From assembly GCA_020348305.1 (NCBI GenBank), contig CP070746.1, forward strand, positions 1,062,793-1,099,206: a stretch of DNA of 36,414 nucleotides. Direction: 5' to 3'. Shown here one piece after another: positions 28,909 through 31,749 of the stretch (within the stretch, counting starts at the first letter, position 1; the number at the start of each line of letters is the position of its first letter). This stretch comes from Desulfobacterales bacterium (GTDB taxonomy: Bacteria; Desulfobacterota; Desulfobacteria; Desulfobacterales; JAHEIW01). The notes under the pieces were generated by a model, which made no database searches, had not been told where the DNA came from, and saw nothing but the letters and a program-made list of their open reading frames with translations. The translations under genes and the position numbers were made by a program.

Positions 28909-30126
28909 ATGGCGATAATTAATCGAATCAGTTCGGAAAGCGTAGTCGATTTAATCTTCTACCTGAAATGGAAAAGCAGTATTGCAGTCCACACCGACGG
29001 CTTTCAGGCCAGCAAAGTAAACATCTGGCGCGACTATCTGCCGCCGCGATTGTTGGATGCGCTGATGAACAAGGAGGCAGGCGAACGGTTGCAAGTGTCA
29101 CTCAAGGATAGGGATATTGTTGCGGCCTTCACCGACCAAAACCTCTTCGATATCAAGAGTTCCCAGTTCGACCGCCGTTTTATGCAGGGGGCGGTTACCG
29201 AACCGCGCCTAGGCCGTTTTTATCTTAAAGGCATGTTGAAGGGAATTGCAGGAGTTTTCAGGGCCAATGTCCAGCCATTCCGGTGCGTTGGATTGGGCAA
29301 CGGCCATATAACGGTCGATTTTAATCATGCGCTGGCCGGCAAGGACATAACGGTTTCTGTCGTCATCGGAAAGGTCGGACGCAAACGGGCCGAGCGGGGC
29401 GTAACCAGCTTCGACTGGATGGATTCCCTAACGACCGGCCCCGGAATGCAGGCCCGCTGGCAAAATCAGCAGACCGATTATTTCTCTGACGACGCCTTTA
29501 CGCGCGATGATGCTCATTCCGATACAGAATTTTACCGAAAACCAAGATTTGTCCATCACATCGATGACACCGCACGTGAGATGGTGAGTAACACCTACGG
29601 ACGATTTTTGGCCGATGGAATGCAGGTTCTCGATCTAATGAGCAGTTGGCACTCGCATATTCCCACCAATTTGCATCTGGAACGTCTCGTCGGCATAGGG
29701 CTCAATGAAGACGAGCTCAAAAGAAATTCGCAATTGAGTGACTTCCTGGTTCAAGATCTGAATGCCGACTTCAGGTTGCCGTTCGAATCCAACACTTTTG
29801 ATGTCGTTGTCAATACGGCGTCTGTTGAATATCTAACTGATCCCTTGGCTAACTTCAGAGAGATATCTAGAATTTTACGACCGGACGGTTATTTCATCGT
29901 CACATTTTCAAATCGGTGGTTTCCGACCAAAGCTATCAAGATCTGGCAGGAACTGCACGAGTTTGAGCGCATGGGGCTGGTGCTGGAATACTTCTCACGC
30001 GCCGGTGGTTTCAAAGACTTGCAAACCTATTCAATAAGGGGACTGCCCCGGCCGCACGATGACAAATATTTCCCCGAGTTGTCGTATTCCGATCCGGTCT
30101 ATGCCGTATGGGGAAGGAATCAATAA
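28909..30126 (+). CDS. FKBP/SlyD-like domain fused to a degenerate class I methyltransferase
   Basis: The 405-residue protein has two parts. Residues about 60-155 end in ITVDFNHALAGKDITVSVVIGKV, the hallmark tail of SlyD-type FKBP prolyl isomerases. Residues about 215-370 form a methyltransferase-11-like domain with PFESNTFDVVVNTASVEYL and LRPDGYFIVTFSN. The first SAM motif is weak, reading MQVLDLMSSWHSHIP instead of a glycine-rich loop. It may bind SAM poorly or act on another ligand. GGGAGAATAGCA precedes the ATG. It leads a tight unit with DUF1499, the peroxiredoxin and a small Cys protein. Function unknown. Confidence 0.75.
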   Translation: MAIINRISSESVVDLIFYLKWKSSIAVHTDGFQASKVNIWRDYLPPRLLDALMNKEAGERLQVSLKDRDIVAAFTDQNLFDIKSSQFDRRFMQGAVTEPRLGRFYLKGMLKGIAGVFRANVQPFRCVGLGNGHITVDFNHALAGKDITVSVVIGKVGRKRAERGVTSFDWMDSLTTGPGMQARWQNQQTDYFSDDAFTRDDAHSDTEFYRKPRFVHHIDDTAREMVSNTYGRFLADGMQVLDLMSSWHSHIPTNLHLERLVGIGLNEDELKRNSQLSDFLVQDLNADFRLPFESNTFDVVVNTASVEYLTDPLANFREISRILRPDGYFIVTFSNRWFPTKAIKIWQELHEFERMGLVLEYFSRAGGFKDLQTYSIRGLPRPHDDKYFPELSYSDPVYAVWGRNQ

Positions 30127-30159: not shown

Positions 30160-30549
30160 GTGAATATGAATGAACATACAAAAACGATGGAACCATGCCC
30201 GAAAACGCCCAATTGCGTGTCTTCAGTGGACACTGATCGGAGGCATTCTGTTAATCCATTGCGATTTGCGGGCAGCGCCAAGGATGCGCAGTACATGCTG
30301 CTGAGAATCCTCAATGAAATAGAAGGAGCTCGGGTGGTGACTTTTGAAAAAAATTATATCCAGGTCGAATTTATCTCTTCTGTTTTTCGCTTCACCGATG
30401 ATGTCCATTTTTACTTTGATGATCACAAGAAAATCATTCACGTAAAATCGACTTCTCGACTAGGATTTTACGATCTGGGGGTCAACCGTCGAAGAATTGA
30501 GAAAATACGAAGACGATTCGATCAAGGTGAAAAAAGTTACAGTAATTAA
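30160..30549 (+). CDS. DUF1499 family protein
   Basis: The 129-residue protein carries the two marks of DUF1499: PCPKTPNCVSS near the N-terminus and STSRLGFYDLGVNRRRIEKIRRRF at the C-terminus. A GTG start is chosen because AAGGA ends about 11 nt before it. An ATG two codons later is possible. There is no signal peptide in this form, although many homologues are lipoproteins or have one. Biochemical role unknown. It lies 33 nt after the methyltransferase fusion and 18 nt before the peroxiredoxin, so co-expression is likely. Confidence 0.86.
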   Translation: MNMNEHTKTMEPCPKTPNCVSSVDTDRRHSVNPLRFAGSAKDAQYMLLRILNEIEGARVVTFEKNYIQVEFISSVFRFTDDVHFYFDDHKKIIHVKSTSRLGFYDLGVNRRRIEKIRRRFDQGEKSYSN

Positions 30550-30567
30550 GCTGAAAGGGGGGTAACA

Positions 30568-31035
30568 ATGGTTGAGATCGGAAAGAAGGCAAAAGATTTT
30601 TGCGTTGCATCAGCAAACGCAGAACAGATCTGTCTAAAAGACTACGCCGGTAAATGGGTGGTCCTGTTTTTTTATGTCAAGGACAACACGAGTGGCTGAA
30701 CGGCTGAAGCTCTGGAGTTCTCAGAGTTAAATCCGCAGTTTAAGGCCCTGAATGCAAAGGTTTTGGGAGTGAGTCCCGATTCCGTCTCGTCTCATCAAAA
30801 GTTTATTCAAAAACACAACCTTTCGATAGATTTGCTCAGTGATCCGGATCATAAAATTGTAAAAAGCTACAACGCCTGGGGCAAGAAAAAGATGTATGGG
30901 AAAGAATATGAAGGTGTTATTCGCAGTACGGTTATAATTGATCCGGATGGCATGGTTCGGCTTATATGGCCCAAAGCCAAGGCAAAGGGGCATGCTTTAG
31001 AGGTGTTGAACGAACTGAAAAGCATAGTTGGATGA
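30568..31035 (+). CDS. Selenocysteine-containing peroxiredoxin (Bcp/PrxQ type), UGA read-through
   Basis: The frame starts at the ATG 30568 (AGGGGGG upstream) and runs to the TGA at 31033-31035, broken only by TGA at 30697-30699. Read as selenocysteine (U), it gives a 155-residue Bcp/PrxQ peroxiredoxin. VVLFFYVKDNTSGUTAEAL places U44 exactly on the peroxidatic Cys of PKDNTPGCTTEAC. The rest is typical: VLGVSPDS, then LLSDPDHKIVKSYNAWG, GVIRSTVIIDPDG. The second (resolving) Cys position five residues later is Leu, so it would be a 1-Cys type enzyme. It would reduce hydroperoxides, probably with thioredoxin-like donors. Ordinary gene callers will split or truncate this gene. Recognised selenoprotein peroxiredoxins exist in other anaerobes. 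Confidence 0.9.
30708..30728 (+). promoter_or_regulatory. Candidate bacterial SECIS hairpin after the Sec UGA
   Basis: AGCTCTG and CAGAGTT pair over seven positions (one G-U) around the seven-base loop GAGTTCT. The apical loop starts 15 nt after the UGA, close to the spacing known for bacterial SECIS elements, and a G opens the loop. Outer pairing of GGCTGAAC with GTTTAAGGCC downstream can lengthen the stem. SelB binding is inferred, not shown. Confidence 0.55.
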
Positions 31036-31284: not shown

Positions 31285-31749
31285 CTATTTGGCCTTACGG
31301 CGCATTTCTTCCTGGCGCATGGGCATGGAATCGATCAATGCAAAGATATCCTTTAATTTGACCATAGCGTTTCGTGTTAGCTTAACTCCGCCATCTTTTC
31401 CTACCAGGATGACGGTGAATCGTCCCGGGGGTACATCAAATTGCTTACGGATGACTTCGGCGGTCGTATGACCGATTTGTGTCGTGTTCTTAAACGACGG
31501 GCCGGTTTCAAAAATTTTAAAAACGACCAAGTCCCGATCCAACACCTCGCCTCTTTGGGTTGAAATTTCGTTTTGTAGGGCACTAAAGAACGGGTCGCTG
31601 TTCTGAGGGGCAAAAATAAAAAGCAGACGATTTTTCCATTTAAACTGATTTAAATCCATAGACCAGGCTTTCTTATTCCAAAATACCGATAAAGCGAAAA
31701 CAGTAATCGATACGAGCGTAATTATTTTTGTAGCTTTAAGTAAAGTCAT
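31285..31749 (-). CDS. DUF4174 family protein, exported
   Basis: The 154-residue protein has an N-terminal hydrophobic segment (about 10-28, LLKATKIITLVSITVFALSV), probably a signal peptide or anchor, so it is periplasmic. The DUF4174 core LNQFKWKNRLLFIFAPQNSDPFFSALQNEI is followed by FTVILVGKDGGVKLT, a thioredoxin-fold-like layout without CxxC. Function unknown. The family often sits near stress or envelope genes. No clear ribosome site. It converges on the peroxiredoxin unit. Confidence 0.83.
   Translation of the reverse strand: MTLLKATKIITLVSITVFALSVFWNKKAWSMDLNQFKWKNRLLFIFAPQNSDPFFSALQNEISTQRGEVLDRDLVVFKIFETGPSFKNTTQIGHTTAEVIRKQFDVPPGRFTVILVGKDGGVKLTRNAMVKLKDIFALIDSMPMRQEEMRRKAK

Follow-up and report, generated by a model that had tools for sequence, protein, structure and literature searches.

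A Bcp/PrxQ-type peroxiredoxin with a predicted peroxidatic selenocysteine in a Desulfobacterales genome

Introduction

Peroxiredoxins containing selenocysteine (Sec) have already been described in bacteria. One selenoprotein family list includes the entry "Peroxiredoxin (Prx), COG1225 (Bcp), TxxU" (PMC9312934), and Sec peroxiredoxin is elsewhere placed under PF00578 with the motif PxxxTxxU (PMC13188914). In Desulfococcus multivorans DSM 2059, dmul_C20060/70 is reported as a Sec peroxiredoxin in which a SECIS follows the UGA, and is among five genes of this type named there (PMC5109826). A first-pass annotation of the locus studied here likewise states that such proteins are known from other anaerobes. 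Sec peroxiredoxins have also been reported in Syntrophobacter, Syntrophus, Anaeromyxobacter and Geobacter metallireducens, with 12 Sec forms and, as counted in 2006, five Cys-to-Sec events (PMC1794560). For the peroxiredoxin superfamily, the Pxxx(T/S)xxC motif has been called definitive, and the resolving Cys was found to have no constant place among four PrxQ structures, so that this residue is not defining for the PrxQ group as described there (PMC5302317). A literature search combining Sec peroxiredoxins with resolving Cys or 1-Cys found no paper.

Given the entries and the example in PMC9312934, PMC13188914 and PMC5109826, Sec peroxiredoxins are a known kind of protein, of which the gene presented here is one more. 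It lies in a stretch of 36,414 nucleotides from a Desulfobacterales bacterium (GCA_020348305.1, contig CP070746.1, positions 1,062,793 to 1,099,206), hereafter the window, to which all coordinates below refer.

Materials and methods

The order-wide search covered 194 Desulfobacterales genomes, with a match threshold of E<=1e-30. The alignment comprised 109 rows, namely the window gene, 80 loci retained out of 89 relatives, and the order-wide loci except the window's own copy and a duplicate of L025, which left 28 of 30 (L numbers denote individual loci). The tree was inferred from these rows with residue 44 masked. The protein was modelled with AlphaFold2 from 41 sequences, C being put for U. 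In synonymous shuffles the protein was kept fixed and codons were drawn according to the gene's own usage. The rule used to recognise hairpins was modelled on the description of the bacterial SECIS.

Results

The gene and its neighbours are listed in Table 1. A single frame runs from ATG 30568 to TGA 31035; apart from the terminal codon (31033-31035), its one TGA is codon 44, as first annotated. Its predicted product reads MVEIGKKAKDFC...NTSG-U-TAEALEF...KSIVG, and the Pfam domain AhpC-TSA (PF00578) covers residues 4-132, spanning codon 44 (E 8.8e-40; 135.9 bits against a cut-off of 26).

Table 1. Features at and around the predicted selenoprotein gene, in window coordinates.
Feature	Position	Strand	Basis or remark
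Putative SAM-dependent methyltransferase	28909..30126	+	Pfam Methyltransf_11, 2.7e-12; 61% identical gene upstream in L025
DUF1499 gene	30160..30549	+	Pfam PF07386, E 1.3e-33; gene of 60% identity next to the L025 peroxiredoxin
Ribosome-binding-site-like purine-rich AGGGGGG	30556..30562	+	5 bases 5' of the ATG; direct sequence reading
Peroxiredoxin of Bcp/PrxQ type, predicted selenoprotein	30568..31035	+	155 residues if UGA44 is read
In-frame UGA, codon 44, predicted Sec codon at the peroxidatic position	30697..30699	+	Alignment, relatives
Predicted bacterial SECIS hairpin	30708..30728	+	7-8 bp stem; folding and comparison
Cys-rich (CxxC...C) mini-gene, 42 codons	31038..31166	+	13-14 residues below most family members
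DUF4174 gene, convergent	31285..31749	-	Pfam PF13778, 2.6e-32

The top solved homologue in the sequence search was the Burkholderia AhpC/TSA protein 5enu (E 2.7e-35), followed by Xanthomonas Bcp. U44 stands opposite the Cys of the solved homologues (NTSG-U-TAEALEF versus NTPG-C-TTEGLQF), so that the equation of TSG-U-TAEAL with the Bcp/PrxQ active site proved exact. The AlphaFold2 model was confident (pLDDT 95.5, pTM 0.90), its best Foldseek matches being of Bcp/PrxQ type (9a4d_B, TM 0.97; 5enu_B, 0.92; 5iiz, 0.90). The active-site Thr41 occurs in all 109 rows and Arg119 in 108, with one gap. Val37 takes the place of the Pro of the superfamily motif, as it does in 17 of the 109 rows, Cys relatives included, and in 5 of the 24 Sec rows; since the Sec rows L112-L114, which have Pro at this position, fall in the window gene's clade, Val37 is read as a tolerated change, and on account of its AhpC-TSA domain, fold and active-site Thr and Arg the protein is filed as a peroxiredoxin despite it. 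Its scores lay below the cut-offs of the NCBIfam PrxQ equivalogs NF053650 (136.7 against 260 bits) and NF006960 (123.8 against 140 bits), and it is therefore termed Bcp/PrxQ-type, an equivalog of neither; nor is it a member of the PrxU equivalog NF040737 (63.9 against 270 bits). A search of plasmids with the gene yielded 381 records, none reaching 60% identity, and the five rows displayed were annotated bcp.

Across the 109 rows, codon 44 is TGA in 24 (window included) and Cys in the remaining 85, with nothing else found, so that every homologue aligned has Cys or TGA at position 44 and a random nonsense change, called unlikely in the first-pass annotation, is very improbable. Matches at the threshold used were obtained in 30 of the 194 genomes of the order, with TGA in 19 and Cys in 11. 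Both copies in a genome of the same genus (G151, CP070694.1, Desulfobacterales bacterium bin60) have TGA (L025 at 82% and L026 at 79%), and with them the other nearest relatives, L112, L113, L114 and L127. Against L025, dN/dS was 0.117 before the UGA and 0.096 after it, which indicates purifying selection on both sides and agrees with the peroxiredoxin conservation noted earlier on both flanks; against L026, synonymous sites were saturated and no ratio was formed.

These data bear on the alternative that survives best, namely that the gene is a pseudogene in which the Cys codon of a normal peroxiredoxin was struck by a nonsense change. TGA is one base away from TGC and TGT, and 11 of the 30 genomes do have Cys at this codon, although selA is found in all 30; the recurrence of TGA in the 19 others, including two divergent copies within a single genome of the genus, the low dN/dS downstream of the TGA (about 0.1 against L025) and a hairpin common to the window gene's clade nevertheless make this history highly improbable. 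Misreading or misassembly of a Cys-type gene at 30697-30699, which had been named at the outset as a result that would overturn the Sec reading, would likewise take only a single base, but the same-codon TGA and the shared hairpin in L025, L026, L112, L113, L114 and L127 leave it next to no credibility.

On the tree, at least eight Sec/Cys changes are needed, five of them forced by supported branches, the count being rough owing to long branches and unsettled bootstrap; such repeated switching fits the five events of the earlier count (PMC1794560). The window gene's clade consists of seven Sec rows (support 84/84); it lies within a group of ten rows (99/91), the others being L028 and Cys genes of Syntrophobacteraceae. 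Whether a genome has the Sec trait was considered as the reason for the Sec form and was ruled out, selA being above the cut-off in 30 of 30 matching genomes, whether Sec or Cys. In L122, a Sec-type relative, an additional TAG is present close to the C-terminal end, reflecting a decayed gene, an error or something else.

The window's genome is a single contig of 6.97 Mb, which contains selA (612 bits), selB (387 bits, above cut-off), tRNA-Sec or selC (75.2 bits, above cut-off; anticodon TCA) and three selD genes above cut-off (L010, L011 and L012). Every component of the Sec machinery that had been proposed as a check is thus present. Two of the three selD genes carry one in-frame TGA, as GU-ASK near their N-termini, and two further peroxiredoxin-like genes (L106, L107) have an in-frame TGA in the UxxC motifs GKWUPYC and RHGUPPC. 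Given the machinery together with TGA in selD and in the UxxC peroxiredoxin-like genes, the use of Sec in several genes of this genome is very likely. A changed code, in which UGA would stand for an ordinary amino acid throughout the genome, would also leave the frame open; set against the full Sec set, and against TGA as the terminator of 12 of 33 selected long window frames, the peroxiredoxin included, it hardly merits consideration. Just as implausible is a shorter product alone, started after the UGA, such as the 90-aa frame from TTG 30763 among the listed frames, which would miss the active site; constraint on codons 1-43 is about the same as past the UGA, and a ribosome-binding-site-like stretch lies 5' of ATG 30568.

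The hairpin predicted downstream of the UGA (AGCUCUG-GAGUUCU-CAGAGUU) has, in its 7-base loop form, a loop that opens with G, 15 bases past the UGA. The 36 bases after the UGA gave a fold z of -2.18, equalled by 3 of 200 shuffles, this stretch having been selected after the fold of a 56-base stretch had proved unremarkable (z -0.71); the stretch from the gene's terminal TGA onward gave +1.51. Measured against synonymous shuffles, z was -2.08 for the window and averaged -1.35 in the Sec rows (14 of 24 below -1), compared with -0.05 in the Cys rows (9 of 85 below -1). Hairpins conforming to the rule were found in 20 of the 24 Sec rows, where 8.8 were expected, and in 32 of the 85 Cys rows, where 29.9 were expected; four Sec rows had none, and the rule is loose, because it accepts 56.5% of the synonymous shuffles of the window gene itself. 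Base pairing was counted in the 8 of 24 Sec rows that share the window's hairpin register (the seven of the clade and the distant L093, with 16 rows omitted): 71 of 72 cells pair, and four pairs are changed on both sides, all four coming from L093, in which the stem is made of different bases and the GUU loop is unchanged. When these eight rows are joined by four Cys rows, 90.7% of cells pair. No Rfam family matched anywhere in the window at gathering scores. As judged from folding and comparison, the hairpin after the UGA resembles a bacterial SECIS. The Cys-type sister gene L028 (4001-4462) keeps a SECIS-like hairpin of 8 pairs, again with the GUU loop, which may reflect a recent Sec-to-Cys change or a hairpin forced by the amino acids.

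The resolving Cys of Bcp/PrxQ proteins usually lies at Cp+5 or in helix 3. In the window protein the Cp+5 position is Leu49, residues 75-88 and the modelled helix 73-83 are without Cys, and the only Cys besides the U44 position are Cys12 and Cys22. The label of 1-Cys selenoenzyme given at first thus holds for the usual resolving places, and falls short in that these two further Cys exist. At +5, Cys occurs in none of the 24 Sec rows and in 39 of the 85 Cys rows (46 without it; naive Fisher p 5e-6). That Sec goes together with the loss of a resolving Cys was nevertheless not borne out: +5 differs in one or two of five independent tree pairs on supported branches, and with just these five pairs the association is not significant.

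Cys12 and Cys22 sit in strands 12-15 and 20-22 of an N-terminal hairpin predicted by the AlphaFold2 model. Among the 106 rows with letters at these positions, drawn from several phyla, both Cys are present in 32, neither in 74 and never one singly. Eight of the 24 Sec rows carry the pair, and so do 17 Cys rows that lack Cys at +5 and 7 that have it, a spread that argues against its being a mere stand-in for the resolving Cys. Each of the two requires four changes on the tree, with one independent pair on supported branches, and their apparent coupling is for this reason striking but statistically unproven. For L057, a protein with Cys12 and Cys22, the alignments to 5 of 10 solved sequences at E 1e-25 (four from Xanthomonas, one from Burkholderia) miss the first Cys, and the second is absent from those structures.

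The DUF1499 stop and the peroxiredoxin start are separated by 18 bases, so that the two genes likely share a transcript. Relatives of the Cys-rich mini-gene are present in 27 of the 194 genomes of the order; the family's proteins are mostly 55-56 aa long (judged from the 120 listed of 130 matches; six sequences inspected), with the pattern DKTLCALQEEGYIE...FCKNCGRSAVxxxNLCNP and no Pfam domain given; the window's mini-gene is shortened at its 5' end and lacks the N-terminal DKTLCALQEEGYIE stretch of the family. In G151, one peroxiredoxin copy has desaturase, LuxR-type, methyltransferase and DUF1499 genes upstream, an arrangement shared with the window, and the genome as a whole gave no match to the mini-gene; conversely, the peroxiredoxin was absent from 14 of 14 mini-gene loci of other genomes, within about 1.5 kb on each side. 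A conserved operon with the mini-protein was rejected on these grounds, and a functional unit of peroxiredoxin, DUF1499 and mini-gene is not supported: where the first-pass annotation spoke of coupling, the neighbours are present as described, and the conserved unit is not.

Other mini-gene loci have similar surroundings, in that DUF1499 precedes the mini-gene at L145 and DUF4174 follows it at about 1.1 kb, and a methyltransferase lies upstream at L141. In both, a small frame stands directly before the mini-gene (in L145 ...DDCIEEAVVGRYAGN...), the two being similar by eye. On the simplest reading, the peroxiredoxin would have replaced the small frame and the start of the mini-gene. Downstream of L026 position 4465, a frame piece with NLCNPKKL is like the mini-gene's end (0 of 20,000 shuffles; BLASTN E 0.018; spotted by eye and tested afterwards), possibly a mini-gene relic.

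Discussion

The Sec machinery, the TGA of the relatives, the similar constraint on both sides and the SECIS-like hairpin together make it very probable that UGA44 is Sec. We are accordingly highly confident in reading 30568-31035 as a Bcp/PrxQ-type peroxiredoxin whose peroxidatic UGA is predicted, from sequence comparison, to be decoded as Sec via the candidate SECIS hairpin; the central claim of the original annotation, Sec at the peroxidatic position of such a protein, is upheld by the machinery, the alignment and the TGA of relatives.

By analogy with known peroxiredoxin chemistry, the U44 selenolate, positioned by Thr41 together with the conserved Arg119, would attack the O-O bond of a peroxide and become a selenenic acid. 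Since Cys is missing from either usual resolving place, this selenenic acid would probably be reduced by an external thiol, for example thioredoxin, reduction by Cys12/Cys22 being less likely. A more specific proposal, that these two residues form a cross-strand dithiol passing electrons to the peroxidatic selenenic acid, a self-resolving route unused by other Bcp/PrxQ proteins, appears improbable to us. The host, as a member of the Desulfobacterales, is probably an anaerobe, in which the enzyme may clear peroxide or alkyl hydroperoxides on oxygen exposure.

The locus adds a well-supported selenoenzyme whose frame breaks under the standard code. Sec and Cys sister genes coexist in the order, with Sec in 19 and Cys in 11 of 30 genomes that all have selA, and offer a natural comparison for the benefit of selenium to a peroxiredoxin that lacks a resolving Cys at the usual places, and the Cys12/Cys22 pair poses a concrete question of enzymology.

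Compared with the Cys-type Bcp/PrxQ proteins of Burkholderia (5enu) and Xanthomonas (5iiz), the window protein has the same fold, the same Thr and Arg and similarity over the whole length, and differs in having a predicted Sec where they have Cys. According to structure entry titles, Xanthomonas PrxQ has C84, which we take to be its resolving Cys; a counterpart is absent in the window protein. PrxU (NF040737), a name presumably tied to a Sec protein, is a peroxiredoxin family too, and the window protein falls below its cut-off. With the TxxU Sec peroxiredoxins, as they are described, it shares the domain family and, by prediction, the peroxidatic Sec, and its TSGU fits TxxU (PMC9312934, PMC13188914). 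It departs from the longer motif PxxxTxxU in having Val37 for Pro (PMC13188914), and it is set apart, as far as those descriptions allow comparison, by its Cys12/Cys22 pair (PMC9312934, PMC13188914). The alternation of Sec and Cys in its family parallels that described for the peroxiredoxins of PMC1794560, and the Sec peroxiredoxin of Desulfococcus multivorans, a sulfate reducer of the Desulfobacteraceae, is by its description alike in combining a UGA with a SECIS (PMC5109826).
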